A DNA stretch of 64,000 nucleotides. Origin: Novosphingobium sp. GTDB lineage: Bacteria > Pseudomonadota > Alphaproteobacteria > Sphingomonadales > Sphingomonadaceae. The stretch is from positions 248,001 through 312,000 of the forward strand of contig JADJYM010000016.1 in the NCBI GenBank assembly GCA_016719755.1, read 5' to 3'. Made by a program: the position numbers and the translations under genes. The notes beneath the pieces were generated by a model. The model ran no database searches. It had not been told where the DNA came from and saw only the letters and a program-made list of their open reading frames with translations. The stretch's first letter is position 1. Each line of letters starts with the position of its first letter. Shown piece by piece: positions 797 through 20,541 of this stretch.

Positions 797-2368
797 ATGA
801 AGGACCTGGCGCTTTGGAACGAGGGTGACTGGATCGCGGCAATCGCGGTCGTCGTGCTCGGCGTGTTTCTTGCCATCGGGGCGAAGATCGCGATCCAGAA
901 AGAACCCGAATTCGCGGGCCATCCCAAGGGCCTGTACATGCTGTTCTTCGCCGAAATGTGGGAGCGTTTCTCCTACTACGGCATGCGCGCGCTGCTGATT
1001 TTCTACCTGACCAAGCACTGGCTGTTCAGCGATGGCAACGCCAACCTGATCTACGGCGCCTATACCAGCCTGGTCTATATCACCCCCGTGCTGGGCGGCT
1101 ATCTGGCCGACCGCTATCTGGGGCAGCGCAAGGCGGTGCTGTTTGGCGGCCTGCTGCTTGCCGTGGGCCACAGCCTGATGGCGGTGGAAGGCAATGGCGG
1201 GCAGACCGATCCGGCGCTCAACGTGTTCTGGGCGGCGCTGGCCTTCATCATCGTCGGCTCGGGCTTCCTCAAGGCCAATATCTCGGTGATGGTCGGCCAG
1301 CTCTACAAGCTGACCGACGTGCGCCGCGACGGCGCCTACACGGTGTTCTACATGGGCATCAACGTGGGCGCGGCGATCGGCACGATCCTTGTCGGCTACC
1401 TGGGTGAGACCATCGGCTGGGGCTATGGCTTCGGCCTTGCGGGCATCGGGATGCTGCTTGGGCTGGTTGTTTTCGTACTGGGCAAGAGCGCGCTGAACGG
1501 CGCGGGCGAGGCTCCGGCCCCGCTGGCGAAATCGCGCGAGTTCACGCTTTATGGCATCGGCATCGGCGCGGTCGCGGTGTGCTGGGCGCTGGTCCAGTAC
1601 CAGTCGGTGATCCAGACCCTGCTGGTGATCTCGGGCGTCGGCCTGCTGGGCTATGTCCTGTACGAAACCTTCAAGCTGCCCAAGGAACCGCGCGAGCGGA
1701 TGTTCGCGATCCTGTTCCTGATCAGCCTCAACCCGCTGTTCTGGGGCCTGTTCGAGCAGGCGGGCGGATCGATGAGCCTGTTTACCGACCGCTATGTCGA
1801 TCGCGGCGCGACCCCGGCCTCGCTGTTCCAGTCGATCAACCCGATCTACATCATCCTGCTCGCCCCGCTGTTCGCCGGGCTGTGGCAATGGCTCGGGCGG
1901 CGCGGCAAGGAGCCTTCGGCCCCGGCCAAGTTCGGTCTGGCGCTGGCGCAGATGGGGCTCGCCAACCTGGTGCTGGTCTGGGGGGCAGAGGCCTTTGGCA
2001 TTGAGGCGATGACCCCGGTGCTGTTCGTGTTCCTTTATTACCTGCTGGCCACCACGGGCGAGCTGTGCCTTTCGCCGGTCGGGCTTTCGGCGATGAACCG
2101 CCTGGCGCCCAGCTACCTCGCCTCGCTGATCATGGGGGCCTGGTTCTACATGACCGCGGTGGGCAACTTCGTGGCCGGCAAGATCGGTGAGGCGACCGGC
2201 GGCCACGGCGGCGAGATGAGCAAGGAAAAGCTGCTCGAAATCTACGAGATGTTCGGCTGGATCTCGATCGGCGCGGCCGTGGTCGTCCTGCTGCTCTCGC
2301 GGATCGTCAAGAGCTGGATGCACCTCGACACGCTGGGACAGGCGGGCGCCGAAGGGGAGAAGGCCTGA
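797..2368 (+). CDS. POT-family proton-dependent oligopeptide transporter
   Basis: A 523-residue inner-membrane transporter of the peptide:H+ symporter (POT/PTR2) family of the major facilitator superfamily. It should import di- and tripeptides. The POT signature is clear near the N-terminus: LYMLFFAEMWERFSYYGMRA, containing the ExxERFxYY motif for proton coupling. A second family motif, including GGYLADRYLGQRKAVL, follows. About 12-14 hydrophobic segments are visible, and the length is normal for the family. I start at the ATG at 797, after a GGGGAG ribosome site, because the upstream in-frame extension from 737 is not transporter-like. Its stop overlaps the start of the next gene (TGATG), so transporter and amidohydrolases form one operon. 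This suggests uptake and processing of peptides or amide compounds. Confidence 0.92.
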   Translation: MKDLALWNEGDWIAAIAVVVLGVFLAIGAKIAIQKEPEFAGHPKGLYMLFFAEMWERFSYYGMRALLIFYLTKHWLFSDGNANLIYGAYTSLVYITPVLGGYLADRYLGQRKAVLFGGLLLAVGHSLMAVEGNGGQTDPALNVFWAALAFIIVGSGFLKANISVMVGQLYKLTDVRRDGAYTVFYMGINVGAAIGTILVGYLGETIGWGYGFGLAGIGMLLGLVVFVLGKSALNGAGEAPAPLAKSREFTLYGIGIGAVAVCWALVQYQSVIQTLLVISGVGLLGYVLYETFKLPKEPRERMFAILFLISLNPLFWGLFEQAGGSMSLFTDRYVDRGATPASLFQSINPIYIILLAPLFAGLWQWLGRRGKEPSAPAKFGLALAQMGLANLVLVWGAEAFGIEAMTPVLFVFLYYLLATTGELCLSPVGLSAMNRLAPSYLASLIMGAWFYMTAVGNFVAGKIGEATGGHGGEMSKEKLLEIYEMFGWISIGAAVVVLLLSRIVKSWMHLDTLGQAGAEGEKA

Positions 2369-3771
2369 TGCGCGGCTTTCGTGCTGTCCTGTGCGGCGCG
2401 GCGCTGGTGCTGACCGCCGCCGCCCCGGGCATTGCCCGGGACAAGAAGGAACCCGGCGCCGCCGCCAAGGCCGCAACGCAGTTCAACAAGGACCCCTATC
2501 CGTCCACCTACCGCCCCTATCCGGGCCAGCCGGTGCTGATCACCGGCGCGACGATCTATGACGGCAAGGGCGGGCGGATCGAAGGCGGCGCGCTGCTGCT
2601 GCGGGATGGCAAGGTTGCCGCCGTGGGCGCCAGCGCGGCGGGGTTCGACGTGCCCGGCGATGCCCTGCGGATCGACGGTTCCGGCAAGTTCGTGACGCCC
2701 GGCATCATCGACATCCACAGCCATCTGGGCGACTATCCCAGCCCGGCGGTCGAGGCCCATTCCGACGGCAACGAGATGACCGATCCGATCACCCCCAACG
2801 TCTGGGCGGAACATTCGGTCTGGCCGCAGGACCCGGGCTTTTCCCGCGCGCTGGCCAATGGCGGTGTCACCGCGTTGCAGATCCTGCCGGGCAGCGGCAA
2901 CCTGATGGGCGGGCGCGGGGTAACGCTGAAGAACGTGCCCGCGCGCACGGTCCAGGGGATGAAGTTCCCCGGTGCGCCCTACAGCCTGAAAATGGCCTGC
3001 GGCGAGAATCCCAAGCGCGTCTATGGCGAAAAGGGCCGGATGCCCAGCACCCGCATGGGCAACTTCGCGGTCAACCGCGAAACCTGGATCAAGGCGCAGG
3101 AATACCGCCGCAAGCGCGACGAGGGCAAGCTGGAGACCCGCGACCTCAAGATGGAAACGCTGGCCGGTGTGCTCGACGGGGAAATCCTGATCCAGAACCA
3201 CTGCTACCGCGCGGATGAAATGGCGCTGGTGCTCGATATGGCGAAGGAGGCCGGTTACAAGGTCACCACTTTCCACCACGCGGTCGAAAGCTACAAGATC
3301 GGCGATCTGCTGCGGGCAAACGAGGTGTGCAGCGCGATCTGGGCGGACTGGTGGGGCTTCAAGATGGAAGCCTATGACGCCATCCCCGAAAACGCCGGCA
3401 TCCTTCACAAGGCCGGCGCCTGCGTGGTGATCCATTCGGACGACGAGAACGGCATCCAGCGGCTCAACCAGGAAGCCGCCAAGGCCCAGGGCGACGCGCG
3501 GCGGATGGGGATCGAGATCCCCGATGCCGAAGTGATCCGCTGGCTGACCGCCAATCCGGCCAGGGCGATGGGGATCGATGCGCTGACCGGCAGTCTGGAA
3601 CCCGGCAAGATGGGCGACGTTGTGCTGTGGAACGGCAATCCGCTGTCGGTCTATTCGCGGCCCGAGAAGGTCTGGGTGGATGGCGCGCTGCTGTTCGACG
3701 CGAACGACCGCAAGCGCCGCCCGGTCAGCGATTTCGAGCTGGGTCAGCCCGGTGAAGGAGACGTGAAATGA
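2368..3771 (+). CDS. Secreted amidohydrolase, metal ligands intact
   Basis: A 467-residue protein of the amidohydrolase superfamily (imidazolonepropionase/prolidase-like branch). It has an N-terminal signal peptide (cleavage near APGIARD), so it probably acts in the periplasm. The metal-site residues are all present: the HxH after strand 1 (PGIIDIHSHLG), later histidines in ILIQNHCYRADE and TTFHHAVES, and the final aspartate in HSDDENG. The C-terminal beta-sandwich segment (LEPGKMGDVVLWNGNPL) is typical. It begins within the stop of the POT transporter and overlaps the second amidohydrolase by 4 bases (ATGA). The substrate cannot be read from sequence; context suggests a peptide or N-acyl compound. 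Confidence 0.88.
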   Translation: MRGFRAVLCGAALVLTAAAPGIARDKKEPGAAAKAATQFNKDPYPSTYRPYPGQPVLITGATIYDGKGGRIEGGALLLRDGKVAAVGASAAGFDVPGDALRIDGSGKFVTPGIIDIHSHLGDYPSPAVEAHSDGNEMTDPITPNVWAEHSVWPQDPGFSRALANGGVTALQILPGSGNLMGGRGVTLKNVPARTVQGMKFPGAPYSLKMACGENPKRVYGEKGRMPSTRMGNFAVNRETWIKAQEYRRKRDEGKLETRDLKMETLAGVLDGEILIQNHCYRADEMALVLDMAKEAGYKVTTFHHAVESYKIGDLLRANEVCSAIWADWWGFKMEAYDAIPENAGILHKAGACVVIHSDDENGIQRLNQEAAKAQGDARRMGIEIPDAEVIRWLTANPARAMGIDALTGSLEPGKMGDVVLWNGNPLSVYSRPEKVWVDGALLFDANDRKRRPVSDFELGQPGEGDVK

Positions 3772-5063
3772 GCGCGCACCGCCTGATGCGCGCCGCACTT
3801 GGCGCGCTGCTCGCCTCTGCCGCTCCCGCCATGGCGCAGGACATGGCCATAACCAATGCCCGCCTGGTGATCGGCGATGGCACGCCGCCGATCGAGAATG
3901 GCACGGTGGTGGTGCGCGGCGGCAAGGTCGTTGCCGCCGGGGCCGGGGTCGCCCTTCCGGGCGATCTCAAGCCAATCGATGCGGGCGGGCGCTGGGTCAC
4001 CCCGGGGCTGGTCGTCGCGGTAACCGATCTGGGCCTGGTCGATGTCGAGGCGGTCGATGACAGCAACGACAGCGGTGCCGCCAAGGCGCCGTTCAGCGCC
4101 GGGCTGGACATTGCCGCCGCGATCAATCCGGCGGCACAGCCGATCGCGATCGCCCGCGCCGGCGGGGTAACCCGCGCCGCGGTGGCGCCGCTTGGCACCT
4201 CGGGCATTTTCCGGGGGCAGGGCGCGGTGATCGATCTGGGCGCCGATCCGCGCGCCGTGGTTCAGCCGCGCGCGTTCCAGTATGTCGATCTGGGCGAGGC
4301 CGGGGCCGCCGTGGCTGGCGGCAGCCGCGTCGCCGTGCTGGCAAGCCTGCGCAATGCCCTCGCCGAAGCGCGCGAGCTTGCGCTCGCCCCCGCTGGTAAC
4401 CGCCGCGACGACGTGCTGCTGACCCGCACCGATGCCGCCGCGCTGATCGCGGTCGTCACCGGCAGACAGCCGCTTTACGTGCGCGCCGACCGCGCCGCCG
4501 ACATCCGCATGGCCCTGAACCTGCGCGAGGAATTCCCCGCACTGAAGCTGACCCTGGTCGGCGCGACCGAGGGCTGGATGGTGGCGGGCGAGATTGCCGC
4601 TGCCGGGGTGCCGGTGATCGCCACGCCGCTCACCGATCTGCCGCAAAGCTTCGAACGGCTGGGGGCCACCCAGTCCAACGTCGGGCGGATGGCGGCGGGC
4701 GGGGTCAGGGTGGCGCTGGGCGCGTTCTTCGATCAGCCGCGCTATGCCCCGCAATATGCCGGCAACCTCGTCGCGCTGAACAGGGTGCCGGGGGCCAGGG
4801 GCCTGTCGTGGGACAAGGCCTTTGCCGCGATCAGTTCGGGCCCGGCCGAGATCCTCGGCATGGGCGAGCGGTTCGGCAGCCTGAGGGCGGGTCGCGCCGG
4901 GGACGTCGTGGTGTGGGATGGCGATCCGCTGGAGCTGACATCCGGCGCGGTGCGGGTGTTCATCGACGGGGTCGAGCAGCCGCTCGAAAACCACCAGACC
5001 CGCCTGCGCGAGCGCTATCGCAGCCCGGCGGAAGGGAGCCTGCCCAAGGCCTACGACTGGTAG
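3768..5063 (+). CDS. Amidohydrolase-like secreted protein lacking the HxH metal motif
   Basis: A 431-residue paralogue of the preceding amidohydrolase, with a signal peptide ending near APAMAQD. The superfamily framework is kept: the N-terminal sandwich, the GGRWVTPGLVVAVT turn and the C-terminal LRAGRAGDVVVWDGDPL segment. At the position where active members have HxH after TPG, this protein reads VVAVTDLGLVD with no histidines, and the later metal-binding histidines are also not evident. It is therefore probably catalytically inactive or changed in chemistry, perhaps a partner subunit of the upstream enzyme. It overlaps that enzyme by ATGA, so the two are translationally coupled. Confidence 0.8.
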   Translation: MSAHRLMRAALGALLASAAPAMAQDMAITNARLVIGDGTPPIENGTVVVRGGKVVAAGAGVALPGDLKPIDAGGRWVTPGLVVAVTDLGLVDVEAVDDSNDSGAAKAPFSAGLDIAAAINPAAQPIAIARAGGVTRAAVAPLGTSGIFRGQGAVIDLGADPRAVVQPRAFQYVDLGEAGAAVAGGSRVAVLASLRNALAEARELALAPAGNRRDDVLLTRTDAAALIAVVTGRQPLYVRADRAADIRMALNLREEFPALKLTLVGATEGWMVAGEIAAAGVPVIATPLTDLPQSFERLGATQSNVGRMAAGGVRVALGAFFDQPRYAPQYAGNLVALNRVPGARGLSWDKAFAAISSGPAEILGMGERFGSLRAGRAGDVVVWDGDPLELTSGAVRVFIDGVEQPLENHQTRLRERYRSPAEGSLPKAYDW

Positions 5064-5776: not shown

Positions 5777-6591
5777 AGCACCAGTTCCAGCCAGGCACGC
5801 TGCCGTTCCTGCGCGCGGCGATCCCAGGCGAGATCGTGATCGAGCCCCGGGAACAGTTCAAGCCGCGCGCGCGGCTGCGCATCACCCAGCGTTTGCGCAT
5901 GGCCGGGCGCGATCATCGTATCGGCGGTGCCGTGCTGGATCAGCACCGGCGCGGCAACCAGCGGCAGCTTGGCCGCATTGTCGAAGCGGTGGCGCACCAT
6001 CCAGCGCGCCGGAACCCACGGCAGCTTCTGCGCGGCAAGTTCGGGCAGGCTGGAATAGGGCGAAACCAGCACCAGCGCGGCGACCCGCGCTTCGCGGGCC
6101 AGCTGCACCGCAACGCCCGATCCCATCGAATTGCCGATCAGCACCACCCTGCCGCTGGCGATGCCCTTGCCTGCCAGCCAGGCCAGCGCCGCGCGGCCAT
6201 CGGCATAGAGTCCGGCCTCGCCCGGTTTGCCGGGATTGCCCCCATAGCCGCGGTATTCGGCCAGCATGACGCCATAGCCCGCATCCGCCAGCACGGCGGT
6301 TGCCCGCGCCGCGCCGCTCAGGCTGTCACCGTTGCCATGGAAGAACACCGCCACCGGCTTGCCCGGCTGCGGTGGGCGCCAGCCGGCCCGCAATTGCAGC
6401 CCGTCGGCGGTCGACAGACCGATCTCGTCGTAACCCTGGGGAAGGTCGCCGGTCGATCCGGTGGCCGGAAAGATCAGCCCGTCCTGCGCCGCATAAAGCG
6501 CGGGAACCGTCGCGACATAGGCCAGCGCGGTGCCCAGGACGATGCCGATGGCGATGCGGACACCCGGGCGCCGCAGCGCCGCGCGTGTCAC
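5740..6591 (-). CDS. Membrane-anchored alpha/beta hydrolase
   Basis: A 283-residue serine hydrolase of the alpha/beta fold, close to the BEM46/YfhR group. An N-terminal hydrophobic helix ([19 protein letters not shown]) probably anchors it with the enzyme domain in the periplasm. The oxyanion strand is [10 protein letters not shown] and the nucleophile elbow is IGNSMGSG (Ser). An acid in [12 protein letters not shown] and a His in [10 protein letters not shown] complete a plausible triad. Its start overlaps the dxs stop (ATGA), so it is co-transcribed with dxs. The substrate is unknown. Confidence 0.85.
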
Positions 6592-8522
6592 GCCCGCGCC
6601 TCTTCCACTCCGGCCGAGTTGTGACGCAGCGCGCGCAGCACGGTATCGACGATCTGCGGGGCGTTGAGCCCGGCGGCGTCATACTGCTTGTCCGGACTGT
6701 CGTGATCGAGGAACAGGTCGGGCAGGCGCAGGGTGCGGATCTTCAGCCCCGCATCGGTCAGCCCCTCATCGCTCGCCATGGTCAGGACATGGGCGCCCAG
6801 CCCGCCGATCGAGCCTTCCTCCACCGTCACCACCACTTCGTGGGCCGCCATCAGGCTGCGGATCAGATCGGTATCGAGCGGCTTGGCAAAGCGCAGGTCC
6901 GCAACCGTGGTCGAAAGCCCGCGCGCCTCAAGCGCATCGGCCGCCTTGAGCGCTTCGGCAAGCCGCGTGCCGAGCGATAGCAGCGCAACCTTGGTGCCCC
7001 CCCGTTCATTGGCGCGCACGATCCGGCCCTTGCCGATTTCCAGGCGCTGCGGAACTTCCGGCAGGGCCACGCCGGTGCCGTTGCCGCGCGGATAGCGGAA
7101 CGCGATCGGGCCGCTGTCGTGAAGCGCGGCGGTATAGGTCATGTGGACCAGTTCGGCCTCATCCGCGGCGGCCATGACCACGAAATTGGGCAGGCTGGCC
7201 AGATAGGTGATATCGAACGATCCGGCGTGGGTTGCACCGTCCGCGCCGACCAGCCCGGCGCGGTCGATCGCGAAGCGCACCGGCAGGTTCTGGATCGCCA
7301 CGTCATGCACCACCTGGTCATAGGCGCGCTGCAGGAAGGTGGAATAGATCGCGCAGAACGGCCGCATCCCCTGGGCGGCAAGCCCGGCGGCGAAAGTCAC
7401 CGCGTGCTGTTCGGCAATTCCGACGTCGAACGAACGCTCGGGATGGCGCTTGGCGAACTTGTCCACCCCGGTGCCCGAAGGCATCGCGGCGGTGATCGCG
7501 CAGATCGTCGGGTCCTTGTCAGCCAGGTCCGCCAGGGTTTCACCGAAGACGTTCTGGTAGGCCGGTGCGGTTGCCACCGCCTTGACCTGTTCGCCGGTGA
7601 CGACGTTGAACTTCTGCACGCCGTGATACTTGTCGGCGGCGGATTCGGCCGGGCCATAGCCCTTGCCCTTCTGCGTCACGACATGGATCAGGCACGGGCC
7701 TTCGGCGGCGTCGCGCACGTTTTCCAGGATCGGGATCAGCTGCTCAAGGTTGTGCCCGTCCAGCGGGCCGACATAGTAGAAGCCCAGTTCCTCGAACAGG
7801 GTGCCGCCCATCGCCATGCCGCGCGCGAATTCGTCAGTACGCTTGGCGGCGCGGTGAAGCGGTTCGGGCAGGTGGCGCGAAAGCTTGCGGGCGATGTCGC
7901 GCAGGCCCAGGAACGGGCGCGACGAAACCAGCCGCGCCAGATAGGCCGAAAGCCCGCCCACCGGCGGGGCAATCGACATGTCGTTATCGTTGAGGATGAC
8001 GACCAGCCGGTTGCCCGCGGCCTTGGCGTTGTTCATCGCCTCATAGGCCATGCCCGCGCTCATCGCGCCGTCGCCGATCACCGCGATGCCCTTGCCCGGC
8101 TTGCCCGCGATCTGGTTCGCCACGGCAAAGCCCAGCGCGGCGGAGATCGAGGTGGAGGAATGCGCCGTGCCGAACGGATCGTATTCGCTCTCGCTGCGCT
8201 TGGTGAAGCCCGACAGGCCGCCGCCCTGGCGCAGGGTGCGGATCCGGTCGCGCCGGCCGGTGATGATCTTGTGCGGATAGGCCTGGTGGCCAACGTCCCA
8301 CACCAGCCGGTCATCGGGCGTGTTGAACACATAGTGCAGCGCAACCGTCAGTTCGACCACGCCAAGGCCGGAACCAAGGTGCCCGCCGGTCTGACCGACG
8401 GCGCTGATCATTTCGGCGCGCAGTTCGTCGGCCAGCTGGCGAAGATCGCCGGGCGGCAGCTTGCGCAGGTCGGCCGGAGTCGCAACCGTGTCGAGCAGGG
8501 GGGTGGCCGGATTTGGGCTCAT
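6588..8522 (-). CDS. dxs: 1-deoxy-D-xylulose-5-phosphate synthase
   Basis: The thiamine-diphosphate enzyme that condenses pyruvate and glyceraldehyde-3-phosphate into DXP, the first step of the MEP isoprenoid pathway. At 644 residues it has normal length. Visible motifs include [16 protein letters not shown], the ThDP/Mg motif [17 protein letters not shown], the catalytic [12 protein letters not shown] of the pyrimidine domain, and [15 protein letters not shown]. The C-terminal transketolase domain is complete. It leads a two-gene unit with the downstream alpha/beta hydrolase. In sphingomonads this enzyme feeds carotenoid, quinone and hopanoid synthesis. Confidence 0.97.
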
Positions 8523-13682: not shown

Positions 13683-14345
13683 TCACCCCGCCTGCCTGAG
13701 CGCGGCGATGTTGGCCGCATAGCAATCGGGTCCGCCCTTGAAGCTGGCCGAGCCCGCAACCAGCACATCGGCCCCGGCATCGACGCAGAGCCGCGCCGTG
13801 GCGGCATCCACCCCGCCATCGACTTCCAGCCGAATCTCGCGGCCGGTCTTGTCGATCGCCTTGCGGATCGCCTCGATCTTGCGCAGCTGGCTGGAAATGA
13901 AGCTCTGCCCGCCAAAGCCGGGGTTGACGCTCATCACCAGGACCAGGTCGATCTCCTCGTAGAGGTAGTCGAGCATCTTGGCAGGCGTTGCGGGATTGAG
14001 CGAGACGCCCGCCTTCTTGCCCAGCGCGTGGATCGCCTGGACCGTGCGGTGGGCGTGGGGCCCGGCTTCGGGATGGAACGTGATGATGTCCGCCCCGGCA
14101 TCGGCGAAGGCCTGAAGATAGGGATCGACCGGCGCGATCATCAGGTGAACGTCGAACGGCTTGGCCGTATGCGGGCGCAGCGCCTTTACCACGGCGGGGC
14201 CGATCGTGATGTTGGGAACGAAATGCCCGTCCATCACGTCGATATGAATCCAGTCGGCCCCGGCGGCGTCGATCGCGCGCACTTCCTCGCCCAGCCGGGC
14301 GAAATCGGCGGACAGGATCGATGGGGAAATAAGCGGTACGGCCAT
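13683..14345 (-). CDS. rpe: Ribulose-phosphate 3-epimerase
   Basis: A 220-residue TIM-barrel enzyme converting ribulose-5-phosphate to xylulose-5-phosphate in the pentose phosphate pathway. Typical segments are [51 protein letters not shown] and [27 protein letters not shown] (quoted in parts: [10 protein letters not shown]). Metal-binding His and Asp residues are present in these motifs. The length is normal. It is divergent from the lasso cluster, with 147 bases between the start codons. Confidence 0.97.
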
Positions 14346-14492: not shown

Positions 14493-15371
14493 ATGGCCCC
14501 GCCGATGGGCGATCCGCACTCCCTCCACCCCGCGCAGGCGCTGATGGCGCGCGAAACGGCGTGGCGGCGGGGAACGGTTCCGCCCGATCTGGATGGCATT
14601 CCGGTCAGCGGCTGGGGCTGGGCAATCACCCGCGACGCATTCCTGCTGCGCACCGACAGCGGCTATGCCTACCTCTACCGCCGGGGCGAGGGCGTGACGA
14701 TCGAACGCGCCGATGATGCCGACCCGCAAGAGGAGCCACTGTGGTTCAACGGCAGCGTCTATGCCGCGATCGCCAGCCTCAACGGGCTGATGCCGATCCA
14801 CGCCTCCGCCATCGCCCACGCGGGCCAGGTCCACGCCTTCACCGGACCGAGCGGCGCGGGCAAGTCGACCCTTGCCGCCGGACTGGGCGCGCACGGCCTG
14901 CCGCTGTTCGCCGACGACACCCTGCTGCTCGACCTGTCCGACCCGGACCGCATCCTCTGCCTGCCCGGACACAAGCGGCTGAAGCTGACGGAAGAGGCCC
15001 TCGACCTCACCGGATCCGCGCGCGAGGAAGAGGTCGGCGCACAGACCGGCAAGCACTATGCCGCCCCGCCCGCCGGCCATGTCCGCGAAGTGCTGCCGCT
15101 CGCGCGGCTCTCGGTGCTCTCAGCGGGCGATCAGTGCCGTTGTGAGCCGCTCGGTGCCGGTGAACGGATTGCGCTGCTGGGGGACGATCACTACACTGCC
15201 GATCTCTTCGCCCTGGCACGCGGGCTGGACCGCCCGGCGCGGTTCGCGCTGTTCGCCGGGCTTGCCGCACGGATCCCGATGGAACGCTTTACCCGCCCCC
15301 GCGACCCCGCCCGCTTCATGGAAGGGGTTGCCGCCATGTCCCGCCGGATTGCCCAGGATATCTTGCCATGA
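14493..15371 (+). CDS. HPr-kinase-like RiPP (lasso peptide) kinase
   Basis: A 292-residue protein with the P-loop core of HPr kinase/phosphorylase-like enzymes. The Walker A motif GPSGAGKST is at residues 118-126, preceded by the typical PIHASAIAH segment, and an acidic LPLFADDTLLL strand follows near residue 140. It lacks the full N-terminal domain and hexamer signature of true HprK. Homologues in lasso-peptide clusters (the paeninodin-type kinases) phosphorylate the C-terminal serine of the precursor. Here the precursor ends in Ser, which fits. The start at 14493 follows GGGAGAG. It overlaps the PqqD-like gene by ATGA and is the first gene of the cluster, which is divergent from rpe. Confidence 0.82.
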   Translation: MAPPMGDPHSLHPAQALMARETAWRRGTVPPDLDGIPVSGWGWAITRDAFLLRTDSGYAYLYRRGEGVTIERADDADPQEEPLWFNGSVYAAIASLNGLMPIHASAIAHAGQVHAFTGPSGAGKSTLAAGLGAHGLPLFADDTLLLDLSDPDRILCLPGHKRLKLTEEALDLTGSAREEEVGAQTGKHYAAPPAGHVREVLPLARLSVLSAGDQCRCEPLGAGERIALLGDDHYTADLFALARGLDRPARFALFAGLAARIPMERFTRPRDPARFMEGVAAMSRRIAQDILP

Positions 15372-15637
15372 CCCAGCCGCTCGCCAAGCGCCCCGGCGCT
15401 TTCAATGAAACGGCGATCGAGGACGAGGTGGTGGTCATGCACCTGGAAAGCGGGGAGTTTTTCTCGCTCACCGGCAGCGCGGCGGCGATCTGGAAACTGA
15501 TCGACGGCACCCGCAGCCGCGATGCGGTGCTGACCGCCCTGGCGGCGCAGTTCGCGGGCGAGGACGAGGCGCGGATTGCCGCCGACCTCGACGATTTCCT
15601 GGCGCAGCTGCGCGCCGCGGGCCTTGTCGAAGCCTGA
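15368..15637 (+). CDS. PqqD-like RiPP recognition element (lasso B1)
   Basis: An 89-residue stand-alone PqqD-fold protein: a winged-helix peptide-binding module that grips the precursor leader and presents it to the B2 protease. Recognisable features are EDEVVVMHLESGEFFSLTGSA followed by the AIWKLIDGTRSRDAVLTALAAQF helix pair (quoted in parts: HLESGEFFSLTG, AIWKLIDG) and an acidic C-terminal helix. It begins inside the kinase stop (ATGA), and its own end overlaps the B2 frame. In clusters with a split B enzyme, B1 and B2 act together, as the tight arrangement here suggests. Confidence 0.88.
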   Translation: MTQPLAKRPGAFNETAIEDEVVVMHLESGEFFSLTGSAAAIWKLIDGTRSRDAVLTALAAQFAGEDEARIAADLDDFLAQLRAAGLVEA

Positions 15638-16034
15638 ATCGGCCTGGCGGCTGCGCGCGCGCACCCTTGCGGCCATGGCGCTGCTGGTCGCGGCGCAGGC
15701 CCTGGTCCGGATCGTTCCGCTGGCCCGCTGGCGGGGCTGGCCGGGGCTGGCGGGTGCGGCCGCGCCGCACCGGCAGAGCGAAGCGCGCAGGCTGGCCATC
15801 CATGTCGAGCGCGCTGCCGCCCGTTTGCCGTGGGGGGCGCTCTGCCTGCCCCGGGCAATCGCGCTAAGTGCACTGTTAAAAAACAGAAATATTCCTCATC
15901 AGGTGGTCATCGCGATCCGCCCCGCCGGACAGCGCGGCGAGGCGGATGCACTCCACGCCTGGATCGATTGCGGCGGGATCGTGGTGCTGGGCGCGCTGGA
16001 AGGGCCATGGCACGAACTGGCCCGGCTGCCCTAA
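15624..16034 (+). CDS. Lasso-type leader peptidase (B2, transglutaminase-like)
   Basis: A protein of about 136 residues from the transglutaminase-like lasso B2 family, which removes the leader peptide. A hydrophobic N-terminal segment (LAAMALLVAAQALVRIVPL) precedes the catalytic region. The catalytic Cys lies in WGALCLPRAIAL (about residue 74) and the His in ADALHAWIDCGG (about residue 111). The third acidic residue is uncertain; Asp115 or Glu126 are candidates. I chose the TTG at 15624, which overlaps the B1 gene by 14 bases; the ATG at 15675 would remove most of the N-terminal helix. The protein is short but has the core motifs. Confidence 0.78.
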   Translation: MSKPESAWRLRARTLAAMALLVAAQALVRIVPLARWRGWPGLAGAAAPHRQSEARRLAIHVERAAARLPWGALCLPRAIALSALLKNRNIPHQVVIAIRPAGQRGEADALHAWIDCGGIVVLGALEGPWHELARLP

Positions 16035-16090
16035 ATTCGGCCGATGCTGCGTTGCAACTTGCAAGCACCTCCCCGACAATGGTAAGCAGG

Positions 16091-16119
16091 TTGCCAACGC
16101 TTCCATTTTGCCCAATATT
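16091..16119 (+). promoter_or_regulatory. Possible promoter for the precursor gene
   Basis: The 100-base gap before the precursor contains TTGCCA (16091-16096) and AATATT (16114-16119) with a 17-base spacer. This fits a weak sigma-70-type promoter in an unusually AT-rich patch. An internal promoter would allow the precursor to be made in excess of the enzymes. Against it, the implied leader before the ATG at 16135 is only about 9 bases. Confidence 0.3.
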
Positions 16120-16134
16120 GCCAGAGGTTTCCCG

Positions 16135-16269
16135 ATGAACTCCGCCACCACCACTGCCTGGAACAAGCCGACGCTCGAAAAGCTGGGCACGCTGAAGGAT
16201 GTGGCTGGCGGTTCGGCCACCGGCAATGACTCCAACGGCAATGGCGGCTCCAACAAGGCGCCGTCCTGA
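16135..16269 (+). CDS. Lasso-type RiPP precursor peptide
   Basis: A 44-residue peptide between B2 and the cyclase gene. The leader contains W9-N-K-P12-T-L14-E-K-L-G18, matching the aromatic-x2-P-x-L-x3-G motif that lasso B1 proteins bind. The rest is almost only Gly, Asn, Ser, Ala, with one Asp (D32), and ends KAPS at the C-terminal Ser44. Ring options through D32 are A24 (9 residues), G25 (8) or G26 (7). The usual Thr at position -2 of the core is absent in all three. AGAGG at 16123-16127 serves as ribosome site. The core lacks the bulky plug residues normally seen, so the final structure is uncertain. Confidence 0.75.
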   Translation: MNSATTTAWNKPTLEKLGTLKDVAGGSATGNDSNGNGGSNKAPS

Positions 16270-16288
16270 TCTTCTGACCAGCTGATCC

Positions 16289-18208
16289 ATGCTCGCCTTC
16301 CTGCGCGAATGGCGCGAAGGCAGCGGCAATGCTGAGCGCATGGCGACTTCGCTTGCGCTTCACGCTCCCGGAAAACTGAGGTTCGCCCAGCGCGATGGCG
16401 CAGCCTTTGCGCTGGTTCCCGGCATCTGGGGCAACCCCGCACTCACCCCAGGCAAGGGGGCTGTGCCGGCGCTGCTACCGTCGGGCGACCGGGTGCTGTT
16501 CACCGGCTGGTTCGACAATCTTCCCGAAGTCGCCCGCCAACTCGGCCTGACCTCGCCCGATCCCGCCGTGGTTTATGGCCATGCGGTCGAGCGCTGGGGG
16601 GATGAGACCGAATGCCGTGTGATCGGCGCCTATGCGGCGGTCATCGACCGGCCCCGTCTTGGCGAGGTACGCCTCGCACGCAGCCCGATCACAGCCCCGC
16701 CGCTGCACTATCACCGCTCGGCAGGCATGGTTGCCGCCGCCTGTGTCCCGCGGGCACTCATCGCGCTGGGCATTCCGGCAGAGCTTGATGAGGACCGGGT
16801 GGCCATGCACCTCCATGCCATGCCGTTCGACCGCCCGGGCGGTTGGTACAAGGGGATCGAGGCGCTGCAACTCGGCATGGTGGTTAACGTCACGCGGGAT
16901 GGCGAGCGTCGATCCCGGCCCTACAGCCTTGAATCCGTGCCCGAAGTTCGGCTCGGAAGCGACCGCGAATACCAGGAAGCGGCGGAAGCGCTGCTCGCCG
17001 AGGCGGTCGACCGGACTATCGCTGGCTATCGCCAGCCGGGCACTTTCCTGTCGGGCGGGCTCGATTCCAGCATCGTCGCCAGCCACATGCTTGACCGGAT
17101 GCCTGCCGAGAAAAAGCTTCCGACCTTCACCTTCCTGCCGGAGGAGGGTTGGGGCAACGAGGTGAATCCGGTCTTCTTCCCGGACGAACGCCCCTATGTC
17201 GAAGCCTTTGCGGCGATGCATCCGCGCATCGAGGCGCAGTTCGTCGACAACGCCGGCAAGGGGTTCGAGGACGGGCTGGATGAACTGTTCCTGCTGAGCG
17301 GAATGGCACCGGCCTCGCTACCATTGATCTATCCCTACCACGGCATGTTCGCCGCCGCGCGGTCGCGCGGCTGCGATCTGCTGGTCGGTGCGGGCATGGG
17401 CAACACCACTTTCAGCAACGATGGCATGCGCGGCTATGTGGAATACCTCCACCAGTTCCGCTTGCGCGATGTCTGGCGCGCCCTGTCCGGGCGCTGGCAC
17501 GATGACCGCCCGGTCTGGCGCCAGTTCGTCAGCCTCTCGCTGATCCGGGCCTTGCCCGAACCGCTGTGGCGCGCATGGTGCCGGCTCCGGCGTATTCCCT
17601 TGCCTGATGCCGGCGCGGTGGCGGGCGCGCTCAATCCCGGCTGGCTGGGCCTGGCGGACCTTGAGCGCGCAGCCCGCGCGGCGGACGCCAGCTTCGACCG
17701 CCCCTTTTACCGCTCGCGCGAGGACGAGGTCGCATCGATGGCCCGGCAAATGGACGCCGATGCGTTCGACCTGATGCAGGGCCTCCAGCAACGCTTCGGA
17801 ATCGCTTACCGCGACGTCACCCGGTACCGCCCGTTCGTGGAGTTCTGCTGGGGCCTGCCGACCGACCAGTTCCTGCGTGGCGGCGAGACGCGCTGGCTGG
17901 CCCGCCGCATGGGCGAGGGACGCCTGCCCGAAGCCATGCGCACAGAACAGCGCCGGGGGTTTCAGCATCAGGATTGGCACCTGCGGATCGGACGGCGGCG
18001 CGAAGCGCTGCTGGCAGAGCTGAAATCGATGCGCGAGAATCCGAAGGTTGCGCGACTGGTCGATTGTGATCGGCTGATCGGCTTGCTGGAAAACTTCCCG
18101 GAAAGCAGCACAACCGATCTTGATCTGGCCTATCAATACATGATCGCGGTGCCGAACGGCGTGGCGATGGGTCGCTTCATCCGTTTCGTGGAGGGCACCA
18201 ATGTCTGA
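16289..18208 (+). CDS. Asparagine-synthetase-like lasso cyclase (C protein)
   Basis: A 639-residue class-B asparagine-synthetase homologue. In lasso clusters it adenylates the Asp/Glu side chain of the core and forms the isopeptide ring. The ATP-pyrophosphatase loop SGGLDSS is at residues 255-261, and a family-typical glycine-rich GAGMGNTTFS follows. The N-terminal glutaminase-like domain is degenerate: the protein starts MLAFLREWREG with no Cys2 nucleophile, so glutamine cannot be its nitrogen donor. This separates it from genuine AsnB. It starts 19 bases after the precursor and overlaps the ABC transporter gene by 8 bases. Confidence 0.88.
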   Translation: MLAFLREWREGSGNAERMATSLALHAPGKLRFAQRDGAAFALVPGIWGNPALTPGKGAVPALLPSGDRVLFTGWFDNLPEVARQLGLTSPDPAVVYGHAVERWGDETECRVIGAYAAVIDRPRLGEVRLARSPITAPPLHYHRSAGMVAAACVPRALIALGIPAELDEDRVAMHLHAMPFDRPGGWYKGIEALQLGMVVNVTRDGERRSRPYSLESVPEVRLGSDREYQEAAEALLAEAVDRTIAGYRQPGTFLSGGLDSSIVASHMLDRMPAEKKLPTFTFLPEEGWGNEVNPVFFPDERPYVEAFAAMHPRIEAQFVDNAGKGFEDGLDELFLLSGMAPASLPLIYPYHGMFAAARSRGCDLLVGAGMGNTTFSNDGMRGYVEYLHQFRLRDVWRALSGRWHDDRPVWRQFVSLSLIRALPEPLWRAWCRLRRIPLPDAGAVAGALNPGWLGLADLERAARAADASFDRPFYRSREDEVASMARQMDADAFDLMQGLQQRFGIAYRDVTRYRPFVEFCWGLPTDQFLRGGETRWLARRMGEGRLPEAMRTEQRRGFQHQDWHLRIGRRREALLAELKSMRENPKVARLVDCDRLIGLLENFPESSTTDLDLAYQYMIAVPNGVAMGRFIRFVEGTNV

Positions 18209-19901
18209 CCCGGCGCCGCTGCGCCGCCTGCCGGTCCCTCGCGCGCTGCATCCGCTGGCAACTCTGCTTGCCGCTCTGCTGTTCGCCTCGGCTCTGACCG
18301 AAGGGGTCGGCCTGGTATTGCTGGTCCCGATCTTGGCTTCGTTGGATTCAGGAGCCCTGGCGGGCAACCTGCAGCTTCTGGGCAAATCGGCGAAGGTGCT
18401 TGACCTTGGCACTCTGCTGGTCCTGTTTATCGGACTGGTGCTGCTGCGCGGAGCGATCAATCTGGCCCGCAATATCATTGCACTGCGGCTGGAAACGGGC
18501 ATTGTCGACGCCCTGCGCCGCCGCGCCTGGAATGCCCTGCTCCATTGTGACTGGCGCGAGCTCAGTGCGATGCGCCAATCGAAAAATGTCAGCCTGCTGA
18601 TCGGCAATATTGACCGCGCCGGGTTCGGAGCAAACCAGGTGTTCATCGGCATGGCCGCGCTGGTCACTTTGGGCGGTCTGGGTATCGCCGCGCTCACCAT
18701 CGCGCCTGCCGTTGCACTCGCCGCACTGCTCAGCGGGGGGCTGGTATTACTGGCCTGCCGGGGAATGCGCCGCCGCTCGGCAGACCTCGGCGAGCGGCTG
18801 AGCCAGGCCTATGACGCAACCTATGCCAGCCTTTCCGGCAGCCTTGGCGCCTTGCGCGCTATCAAGGGCCTGCAGCGCGAGGATCGCTCCGCAGCCGAGG
18901 CCTTTGCCGGGTTCGCCGATCTTCACCGCGTGCGCGAGGCTTTTGTGCGCAGCTCGGGCCTCGCGCAGCTGGCCCTGCAGGGGGGCGGAGCGGCGCTGCT
19001 GGCCCTGCTGGTCTGGATGGCGATCGTACAATGGCAGATCGGCGTTGCCGCGATCCTGCCGCTTGTGGCGCTGTTCGCCCGCGCCCTGCCGCTGCTAGGC
19101 ACGGTGCAGGACGCATGGCAGAACTGGGCTCACTCACGCCCGGCAATCGACGCCACGCTTGCCCTGATCGCGCGCGCCGAAGCCGCGCGCGAGCCTGCCG
19201 TTGCGGGGCTTGCCCCGCCGGTGCTGGAACGGGCCATCACGCTTGATCAAGTGACTGTTCGGTTTGCCGGACAGGACCGGCCCGCGCTGGCCGGGGTCAG
19301 CCTGACGCTTGGCGCACGCGAAGTGCTGGCACTGACCGGGCCGTCGGGCGCGGGCAAGAGCACGCTGGCCGACCTTCTGGCCGGCCTGATCTCACCCGAT
19401 GAAGGCCACATTGCGATCGACGGGCAGGAGCTTGATCCACCCCGCCGCAGGGGTTGGCGCCAGCGGGTCGCCTATGTCGAGCAGGATCCGGTGTTGCTGG
19501 CCGGATCGATTCGCGGCAACCTGCTGTGGGCGGCGCCGGATGCGGACGAAGCCCGGCTGAATGCCGCGCTCGAGGCCGCTTCCGCCACTTTCGTCCATTC
19601 CCTGCCGCAAGGACTGGATACGCCGGTTGGCGATGGCGGGCGGCGCCTTTCAGGAGGTGAACGGCAGCGGCTGATGCTGGCCCGCGCGCTGCTGCGCGAG
19701 CCTGCCCTGCTGGTGCTGGACGAAGCGACCAGCGCGCTTGATTCCGGCAACGAGACCGCAATCGCCGAGGCGCTGAAGCGGCTGCGCGGGCGCATGGCGA
19801 TCGTCATCATCTGCCACCGCGGGGCCTTGCTGGCGCTGGCCGACAGGGAGGTGCGGCTGGATCAGGGCCAGTTGACCGGGATAGATGCGCGCGGGCGCTG
19901 A
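18201..19901 (+). CDS. ABC exporter of the lasso cluster (D protein)
   Basis: A 566-residue half-transporter with an N-terminal six-helix membrane domain and a C-terminal nucleotide-binding domain. Walker A GPSGAGKST is at about residue 380, the signature LSGGERQ at about 483, and Walker B LLVLDEATSALD follows. There is no N-terminal C39 peptidase domain, as expected when the B enzyme removes the leader. It should export the mature peptide and provide self-protection. It is the last gene of the cluster; the next gene (20026) is separated by 124 bases and looks unrelated. Confidence 0.9.
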   Translation: MSDPAPLRRLPVPRALHPLATLLAALLFASALTEGVGLVLLVPILASLDSGALAGNLQLLGKSAKVLDLGTLLVLFIGLVLLRGAINLARNIIALRLETGIVDALRRRAWNALLHCDWRELSAMRQSKNVSLLIGNIDRAGFGANQVFIGMAALVTLGGLGIAALTIAPAVALAALLSGGLVLLACRGMRRRSADLGERLSQAYDATYASLSGSLGALRAIKGLQREDRSAAEAFAGFADLHRVREAFVRSSGLAQLALQGGGAALLALLVWMAIVQWQIGVAAILPLVALFARALPLLGTVQDAWQNWAHSRPAIDATLALIARAEAAREPAVAGLAPPVLERAITLDQVTVRFAGQDRPALAGVSLTLGAREVLALTGPSGAGKSTLADLLAGLISPDEGHIAIDGQELDPPRRRGWRQRVAYVEQDPVLLAGSIRGNLLWAAPDADEARLNAALEAASATFVHSLPQGLDTPVGDGGRRLSGGERQRLMLARALLREPALLVLDEATSALDSGNETAIAEALKRLRGRMAIVIICHRGALLALADREVRLDQGQLTGIDARGR

Positions 19902-20025: not shown

Positions 20026-20541
20026 ATGAACCTGCCCGGACGTTCGATCGCCGCAGCTTCGCTTGCCGCCCCGCTGCTTATTGCCGGCACTGCCCTTGCC
20101 GCTCTTTCCGCCGCCCCGGCCCTGGCCGAAGCTCCATCCGCGCCCGCCGGTTGCACCGGCCCCGCCAGCGGAACCTGGCTGAATGTCACGGTCAGCGGTG
20201 TGCGCAACAGCAACGGCGTGATCGCGGTGACGCTCTATGCCGATGACAGCTCGAAGTTCCTGGTCAAGCGCGGCTCGCTCTATGTCGGGCGGACCGATGC
20301 CTCGACCGGCGTGACCCGGGCCTGCATCTTCGTGCCCAAGCCCGGGGTCTATGCCCTGGCGCTGTACCATGACGAGAACAGCGACGGGAAGTTCGACCGA
20401 ACTGGCGTGGGGCTTCCGGCCGAAGGCTATGGGTTCTCGAACAATCCCGCGACCCTGGCCGGTCTGCCGACCTTCAAGTCGGTGCGCCTTGCGGTGCCCA
20501 AGTCCGGGCTCACCACCCGGGTAACGATGAAGTACCCGTAA
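20026..20541 (+). CDS. Secreted DUF2141 domain protein
   Basis: A 171-residue exported protein. A signal peptide (SIAAASLAAPLLIAGTALAAL, ending near ALAEA) precedes a beta-rich DUF2141 domain with the family sequence YHDENSDGKFDRTGVGLP and EGYGFSNN. Function is unknown; members are small periplasmic proteins. An ATG at 20020 is also in frame, but AGGA at 20013-20016 is better spaced for the ATG at 20026. It lies just after the lasso exporter, but its gap and wide occurrence argue that it is not part of the cluster. Confidence 0.85.
   Translation: MNLPGRSIAAASLAAPLLIAGTALAALSAAPALAEAPSAPAGCTGPASGTWLNVTVSGVRNSNGVIAVTLYADDSSKFLVKRGSLYVGRTDASTGVTRACIFVPKPGVYALALYHDENSDGKFDRTGVGLPAEGYGFSNNPATLAGLPTFKSVRLAVPKSGLTTRVTMKYP

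Follow-up and report, generated by a model that had tools for sequence, protein, structure and literature searches.

The window analyzed here, a stretch of 64,000 nucleotides from Novosphingobium sp. (GCA_016719755.1, contig JADJYM010000016.1, positions 248,001 to 312,000), contains, at positions 14493-19901, a six-gene cassette that forms a complete gene set for a lasso-type ring peptide, encoding a kinase (K), B1, B2, a precursor (A), a cyclase (C) and an ABC exporter (D) in that order. All six open reading frames (ORFs) are open, and the genes, their order and their coordinates are as given in the initial annotation, which had described a lasso-peptide-type cluster. We consider it probable that the cassette, which lies between the ribulose-phosphate 3-epimerase gene (rpe) and a DUF2141 gene, encodes a paeninodin-like lasso or unthreaded-lariat pathway of a sphingomonad type, with a cyclase that takes carboxamide and carboxylate alike. 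For the window itself, the best reading of the sequence is a ring peptide that would be phosphorylated on its last residue. Most relatives of the cassette lack the carboxylate acceptor expected of lasso peptides. This is the most important feature of the family and points to unexplored ring-closing chemistry: either the clade closes rings on a carboxamide, or a lasso cyclase serves something else. The missing carboxylate is invisible from the window, because the window precursor has Asp9, and the window product could be an ordinary macrolactam.

Within the window's genus, 53 of 195 genomes gave a match to the cyclase (E up to 1e-20); within its family 66 of 397 did, representing 27 of 96 genera (E up to 1e-40). 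We fetched 113 regions (53 same-genus, 60 family) and analyzed 114 loci including the window; the broken G136 pieces from the genus search, and G466, G550 and both G502 matches from the family search, were not fetched. Three to six candidates were scored per genome, and second copies could be missed. Locus L051, taken as a duplicate of L052, and L066, in which B2 and the precursor are fused, were left out of the counts. Three lone cyclases with another core register and an acid (L137, L140 and L144) were left out of the clade counts and used as controls, and non-rpe loci without a precursor call lie outside the cores described below. Precursors were chosen by the leader pattern only, W..P.[LIVMTA]... 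with residue 10 being G, residue 15 being [VI] and the core following directly, ignoring the core itself; three near-misses were added by name. This gave 77 distinct cores from 75 loci, window included.

The acceptor place is occupied by D, E, N or Q in all 77 cores, at residue 9 in 69 and at residue 10 in eight. Gln9 is the most common state (51 cores), followed by Glu9 (9), Gln10 (6), Asp9 (5), Asn9 (4) and Asn10 (2), so that 63 of the 77 have an amide and 14 an acid at this place. One locus (L075) has both Asn9 and Gln10 and was counted as Asn9 here and as Gln in the tree described below. The Asp or Glu at positions 7-9 expected of a lasso peptide, which is found in the window (Asp9, or Asp8 or Asp7 with a later core start), is therefore missing from most relatives. 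No Asp or Glu occurs anywhere in 44 of the 77 cores, and none at positions 7-10 in 51. We considered whether conservation of residue 9 might simply reflect core composition and rejected this after 5000 within-core shuffles, which placed D, E, N or Q at residue 9 in a mean of 17.3 and a maximum of 30 cores (69 observed), and at residue 9 or 10 in a mean of 30.9 and a maximum of 47 (77 observed). A similar W-leader rule was applied to controls from outside the clade, namely clusters of different type within the family, further families of the class, and Bacillota. The 63 control loci yielded 42 candidates in 36 loci and none in 27. An acid was found at positions 8-11 in 37 of these 42 candidates, as compared to 26 of the 77 cores inside the clade; when Y-leaders were allowed the control figure was 40 of 47. 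Two of the five exceptions, L152 and an ORF in L230 that looks like chance, had amides and no acid, and three, all chance-looking, had neither; one acid candidate (the second in L100) is also chance-looking.

By the definition given in the literature, cited here from excerpts, a lasso peptide has an Asp or Glu acceptor (PMC8498205), and a screen of ubonodin kept Gly1 and Glu8 unmutated, as the ring requires (PMC10037499). Gln or Asn as a lasso acceptor was not found among the PMC titles and opening lines of abstracts surveyed, and neither carboxamide ring closure nor a lasso cyclase used otherwise was found in print; prior notice is possible. The nearest precedent is metanodin, in which Asn1 is described as the amine partner of an Asp acceptor (PMC12670498). 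The clade spans many genera. An Asp or Glu acceptor is also part of the mining rules for lasso precursors, and such rules would largely miss a clade that retains the machinery and has mostly Gln. Such a clade would either add an amidine (or transamidation) to lasso chemistry or show that lasso cyclases have been put to use in a different reaction.

The predicted window core has 21 amino acids, AGGSATGND followed by the tail SNGNGGSNKAPS, with the acceptor at Asp9 and a C-terminal Ser; its linear form has a computed neutral monoisotopic mass of 1818.7729 Da. The precursor gene (16135..16269, forward strand) encodes the leader MNSATTTAWNKPTLEKLGTLKDV ahead of this core. We prefer a core start at Ala24, since residue 1 is then Ala (71) or Gly (4) in 75 of the 77 cores, and since the 15 residues from the leader W to the core then align the clade precursors gap-free with those of paeninodin type. 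Residue 2 is Gly in 57 of 77. The same rule places the acceptor at residue 9 in the control precursors of Priestia aryabhattai (LGGSGEYTD) and Paenibacillus cellulosilyticus (AGAGTKYID). Residue 9 is the ring-closing residue in paeninodin-type precursors. The paeninodin (PadeA) core begins AGPGTSTPD, and the [M+2H]2+ of 1209.504 computed for it matches the published 1209.50 (PMC5067487). A start at Gly25 would make Ser residue 3 and give an 8-residue ring. The aligned acceptor is one and the same residue whether the core begins at Ala24, Gly25 or Gly26.

The cyclase gene (16289..18208, forward strand) encodes a 639 amino acid lasso cyclase homologue of the asparagine-synthetase type, which scores 79.2 bits against Asn_synthase (PF00733; cut-off 21) and has the intact LSGGLDSS PP-loop motif. 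This signature is retained, with small variants, in acid and amide members alike. The structural model (predicted local distance difference test score, pLDDT, 93.5; predicted template modelling score 0.93) has as its nearest folds in the PDB TsnB9, beta-lactam synthetase, asparagine synthetase and carbapenam synthetase, at 12-16% identity; C has its predicted fold and its PP-loop in common with these enzymes. Beta-lactam and carbapenam synthetases close rings by carboxylate adenylation, and the substrates of the synthetases and TsnB9 are small molecules. Other PP-loop enzymes, argininosuccinate synthetase and TilS, use ATP to activate amide-like carbonyls.

From the genes, motifs, predicted folds, synteny and conservation observed, we infer the chemical steps, the exact cleavage site, threading and phosphorylation. 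B1 would bind the leader (WxKPxLxxLG) and present the precursor, the kinase would phosphorylate the C-terminal Ser21 of the linear precursor, and B2 would cut the leader at V23|A24. C would then activate the side-chain carbonyl of Asp9 with ATP, the amine of Ala1 would close a 9-residue ring, and D would export the product. The ring-closing position would be common to the clade, mostly as Gln, with a cyclase subfamily taking carboxamide and carboxylate; the outcome on Gln or Asn would be a cyclic amidine, with net loss of water, or, via loss of ammonia, an ordinary isopeptide. As a tentative proposal, which we regard as a real possibility and short of an even chance, the subfamily closes the ring on the Gln or Asn carboxamide by ATP-dependent activation of the amide oxygen, giving lasso-type macrolactamidines, and the rarer acid members, including the window's with Asp9, give ordinary macrolactams with an enzyme of the same fold. 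Direct transamidation with loss of ammonia is a weaker form of the same idea.

The evolutionary behavior of the acceptor bears on an alternative in which all members are ordinary lasso peptides and Gln or Asn9 is first deamidated, spontaneously or by an enzyme encoded elsewhere, before the usual isopeptide forms. Carboxylate activation is the lasso cyclase chemistry that has been described (PMC13352647, PMC8498205), and acid members do exist (the 14 cores with Asp or Glu). In a tree of 80 cyclase rows, of which 73 have an assigned state (60 amide, 13 acid), at least nine changes between amide and acid are needed, seven of which are forced by well-supported branches; the states are somewhat clustered (minimum of 9 changes, shuffled mean 12.2). 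Near neighbors keep the side-chain length, as in L082 (AGPRGSGTE) and L083 (AGPTGNGVQ; full core AGPTGNGVQGGPNGRS, with Gln9) and in L070 (AGSQAINND) and L071 (AGSNAVNAN), and the acceptors of L069, L070 and L071 are D, D and N. Changes from Gln to Glu and from Asn to Asp require a single base, yet amides persist in 63 of the 77 cores, which would be odd if the acid were the true substrate. No deamidase match was found among the six genes of the window, the rest of the genomes not having been searched for one. We regard prior deamidation as unlikely. With the natural Q/E and N/D neighbor pairs (L083 with L082, L071 with L070), the acceptor chemistry could be put directly to the test by exact mass.

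It is also possible to view residue 9 as a recognition or hydrogen-bonding residue at which no ring is formed, with C acting elsewhere, for instance on the carboxylate of the C-terminal Ser. In the 44 cores without Asp or Glu the C-terminus is the only carboxylate, and the last residue is Ser in 75 of the 77 cores and Thr in the other two, and where the stretch fetched gave no kinase match, Ser ends 31 of 31 cores. Against this explanation stand the homology, without gaps, to precursors of paeninodin type, whose ring acceptor is residue 9, the occurrence of D, E, N or Q at residue 9 or 10 in all 77 cores, and the Ala or Gly at residue 1 in 75. We consider such a role, with head-to-tail closure or another C-terminal amide formed at the C-terminal carboxylate, unlikely.

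Several results weigh against the proposed lasso or lariat pathway with a cyclase of dual specificity. The NCBIfam lasso cyclase model matches C at only 101.8 bits, under its cut-off of 525. Of the initial interpretation of the window, split-B machinery of lasso type and a kinase of the type acting on ribosomally synthesized and post-translationally modified peptides (RiPPs) are supported. Within the clade no cyclase residue was found that cleanly tracks acid versus amide: 434R occurs in 11 of 14 members with an acid and in 13 of 60 with an amide, and position 381 is Trp in 68 of 74, with Arg only in the window and L052. The absence of such a signature fits one enzyme taking both and fits equally well with residue 9 not being the acceptor. 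L152, a real precursor outside the clade, has only amides at the aligned place, and the amide state is thus not confined to the clade. The spacing of BsfA (Tyr at -17) would move the core start to Gly26, with a 7-residue ring. Thr(-2) was not found in the window precursor, which has Asp(-2) with the Ala24 start and Val or Ala with the later starts; the excerpt of PMC10368454 describes Ile and Val exceptions, and Thr(-2) is thus not strict. Finally, tails in the clade are 4-18 residues long (6 or 7 in 36 of 77) and contain F, W or Y in only eight of 77, and that of the window has no aromatic or large aliphatic residue. Stable threading is doubtful because the tails are short and mostly without aromatics; an unthreaded lariat, or phosphoserine serving as a plug, are possible alternatives to a stably threaded lasso.

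A Cys pair was seen in several Gln cores (L072, L074, L075, L077, L085 and L086; for example ACTIGQPSCAFS), which from their sequences could be a disulfide-stabilised subgroup. Two precursors each were present in L080 (Asn9 and Gln9) and L145 (both Gln9).

The kinase gene (14493..15371, forward strand) encodes a 292 amino acid HprK-related RiPP kinase. Its residues H103, G118, G121, G123, K124, S125, D141 and D142 correspond to the catalytic residues of BsfK with identical spacing, and in 36 aligned sequences including the window H103, G121, G123, K124, D141 and D142 are invariant and S125 nearly so. The model (mean pLDDT 94.6) has HprK/P as its best PDB match and also matches phosphoenolpyruvate carboxykinase. 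The initial annotation had proposed comparison with paeninodin-type homologues, with grouping with the HprK of the phosphotransferase system (PTS) as the contrary outcome. The window kinase shares 26% identity over 231 residues with its counterpart in the Priestia aryabhattai paeninodin-family cluster, and it falls below the cut-offs of the PTS HPr kinase models (PF07475, 14 bits, cut-off 33.3; TIGR00679, 12.2 bits, cut-off 240). The contrary outcome therefore did not arise, and PTS HprK was rejected as an identity. The Priestia kinase (L165, 7063-7998) is labelled 'aldolase' in its plasmid record, yet aligns with that of the window.

The precursor was correctly described as ending in Ser, which is in keeping with the accounts of kinases from paeninodin-type and Sphingobium clusters (excerpts of PMC9266682 and PMC8498205). 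It was further stated in the initial annotation that kinases of this type act on the C-terminal Ser in paeninodin-like clusters. The last residue is Ser or Thr in all 46 cores of kinase-positive loci, while position 3 is Ser or Thr in 16 of them, and phosphorylation of the C-terminal Ser is therefore favored, on the pattern of conservation, over the Ser3 type. The latter would have the kinase phosphorylate Ser or Thr3 in the ring, as described for BsfK of Bradymonas, whose motif is identical and whose target is Ser3 (PMC10368454). With the Ala24 start, residue 3 of the window core is Gly, and it is Ser only with the Gly25 start; we consider a BsfK-type specificity quite improbable. The C-terminal Ser alone is no proof of the kinase target, because it is also present in the 31 of 31 cores whose loci gave no kinase match in the stretch fetched; either these would be phosphorylated by a kinase encoded elsewhere, or the Ser has another role. 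Contig ends could explain the absence of a kinase at L071, L080, L081 and L094. All 27 genomes checked contain kinase-like genes, including the 24 of 24 whose cyclase locus has none, and such genes elsewhere in the genome may act for the kinase-less clusters.

The remaining genes agree with a split-B lasso cluster, four models for B1 and B2 being above their cut-offs. B1 (15368..15637, forward strand, 89 amino acids), a PqqD-type leader-binding protein with a RiPP recognition element, matches PF05402 (PqqD) at 71 bits (cut-off 23.4) and TIGR04353 at 38 bits (cut-off 35); as noted originally, its start overlaps the kinase stop by ATGA. B2 (15624..16034, forward strand, starting at TTG 15624 or ATG 15675), a transglutaminase-like leader peptidase separated from the precursor by the 100-base gap noted previously, matches PF13471 (Transglut_core3) at 59.5 bits (cut-off 26) and NF033537 (NCBIfam lasso_biosyn_B2) at 49.9 bits (cut-off 33). 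Its Cys (ALCLPRA) and His (LHAWID) align with those of the Priestia B2; a sequence search of the PDB with B2 led nowhere. The exporter D (18201..19901, forward strand, 566 amino acids) matches ABC_tran (PF00005) at 117.3 bits (cut-off 25) and ABC_membrane (PF00664) at 34.1 bits (cut-off 28), and no peptidase domain was found among its Pfam matches.

Reduced clusters of the form B1-A-C, with or without D, make up 20 of 70 rpe-site loci, and such reduction is frequent outside the window's genus. True loss of B2 from the B2-less clusters was rejected, since at least one B2 is encoded elsewhere in each of the 23 genomes checked that have none beside the cyclase (in G283 one of two lies about 9 kb away). 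Thirteen of these regions were fetched (L169-L181), and five lie within a second lasso-type cluster. The other eight (L172, L175-L181) have no other pathway-profile match within the region fetched, except for an exporter in L180, and these lone B2 genes are, judging by their surroundings, apparent orphan leader peptidases acting in trans for the B2-less rpe-site clusters.

The order of the genes had been called unusual. This holds only by comparison with textbook clusters and was rejected as a novelty, as the order is the norm in the clade: K-B1-B2-C was found in 44 of 44 rpe-site loci holding both kinase and B2, and the precursor lies between B2 and C in 43. The rpe gene (13683..14345, reverse strand; TIGR01163, 292.5 bits) flanks the window cassette on the left and a probably secreted DUF2141 protein is encoded on the right (20026..20541, forward strand; PF09912, 94.4 bits). 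The cassette adjoins rpe in 70 of the 114 loci. The kinase is present in 35 of 35 same-genus rpe-site loci; in other genera the kinase was found in 10 and B2 in 13 of 35. Of 23 cyclase-less genomes searched, nine had a close DUF2141 orthologue and the other 14 had weaker paralogues, and rpe and DUF2141 are direct neighbors in 9 of the 9 cassette-free loci so obtained. Given this adjacency, the cassette is an insertion that is either present or absent at one fixed site, and for the same reason rpe and DUF2141 were rejected as pathway genes. It is very improbable that the window copy is decayed or non-functional and only looks intact by chance: its six ORFs are open, the kinase and cyclase motifs are kept, and the cassette recurs in 70 loci with strongly varying cores. 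Broken or partial relatives do occur, as expected of decay. One is a second cyclase piece in G123 (L104, contig 1, about 2.63 Mb), apparently decayed, with three in-frame TGA. Another is L066 (about 6300-7000), where B2 and precursor share one frame and the precursor start is lost; its core would be Gln9, and the fusion, as read from the sequence, is an in-frame deletion or an assembly chimera.

The clusters of Bacillota closest in type, those of Priestia aryabhattai pB2.3 (L165) and Paenibacillus cellulosilyticus (L166), share with the window the split B, an ABC exporter and a kinase related to HprK; their precursors likewise end in Ser, have a W..P leader with a 15-residue distance from W to the core, and carry the acceptor at residue 9. 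They differ in having Thr(-2), where the window has Asp(-2), an Asp acceptor in both, where the window's clade has mostly Gln, and Phe or Tyr in both tails, where the window tail has none; L165 also has its genes in the order C-A-K-B1-B2-D. For a putative kinase cluster from Proteobacteria, the excerpt of PMC5067487 gives the order A-B1-B2-C-K-D. SyanK and SyanA of Sphingobium yanoikuyae, compared by their description (PMC9266682, PMC8498205), have in common a proteobacterial host, a kinase and a C-terminal Ser. The bsf cluster of Bradymonas sediminis shares the kinase motif and its spacing, the split B and a rare penultimate leader residue, but its kinase acts on Ser3, the acceptor is Asp8 and the C-terminus is Asp (PMC10368454). 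The same source mentions Sphingomonadales precursors with Ile or Val(-2), which by our reading of the sequences are better fitted by the K-A-B1-B2-C clusters (L090-L093, L139, L143, L146, L150 and L151) than by the rpe-site family.

Within the window the initial annotation had placed no isopeptidase or receptor near the cassette. There are 83 ORFs of at least 230 amino acids, many on the wrong strand of a gene, of which 20 were scanned with Pfam (10 within approximately 10 kb); none of these 20 matched peptidase S9 or a TonB receptor, and the statement holds for those 20 only. Among ten annotated plasmid records, no close relative was found; identity reached at most 27.8% over the full length, and 38.6% in one short piece. 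A named relative, the Sphingomonadales metagenome-assembled genome REEB403 (L051), has a cyclase 67% identical to that of the window. On Tistrella mobilis pTM1 (L167), cyclase, kinase and B1 genes lie beside a 48 amino acid 'hypothetical' that resembles a lasso precursor with an acid at the acceptor place, with a sigma factor, FecR and a TonB receptor as neighbors. Elsewhere in the window, positions 2368-5063 contain a tandem pair of amidohydrolase-family genes (PF01979/PF07969) with a 4-base overlap.

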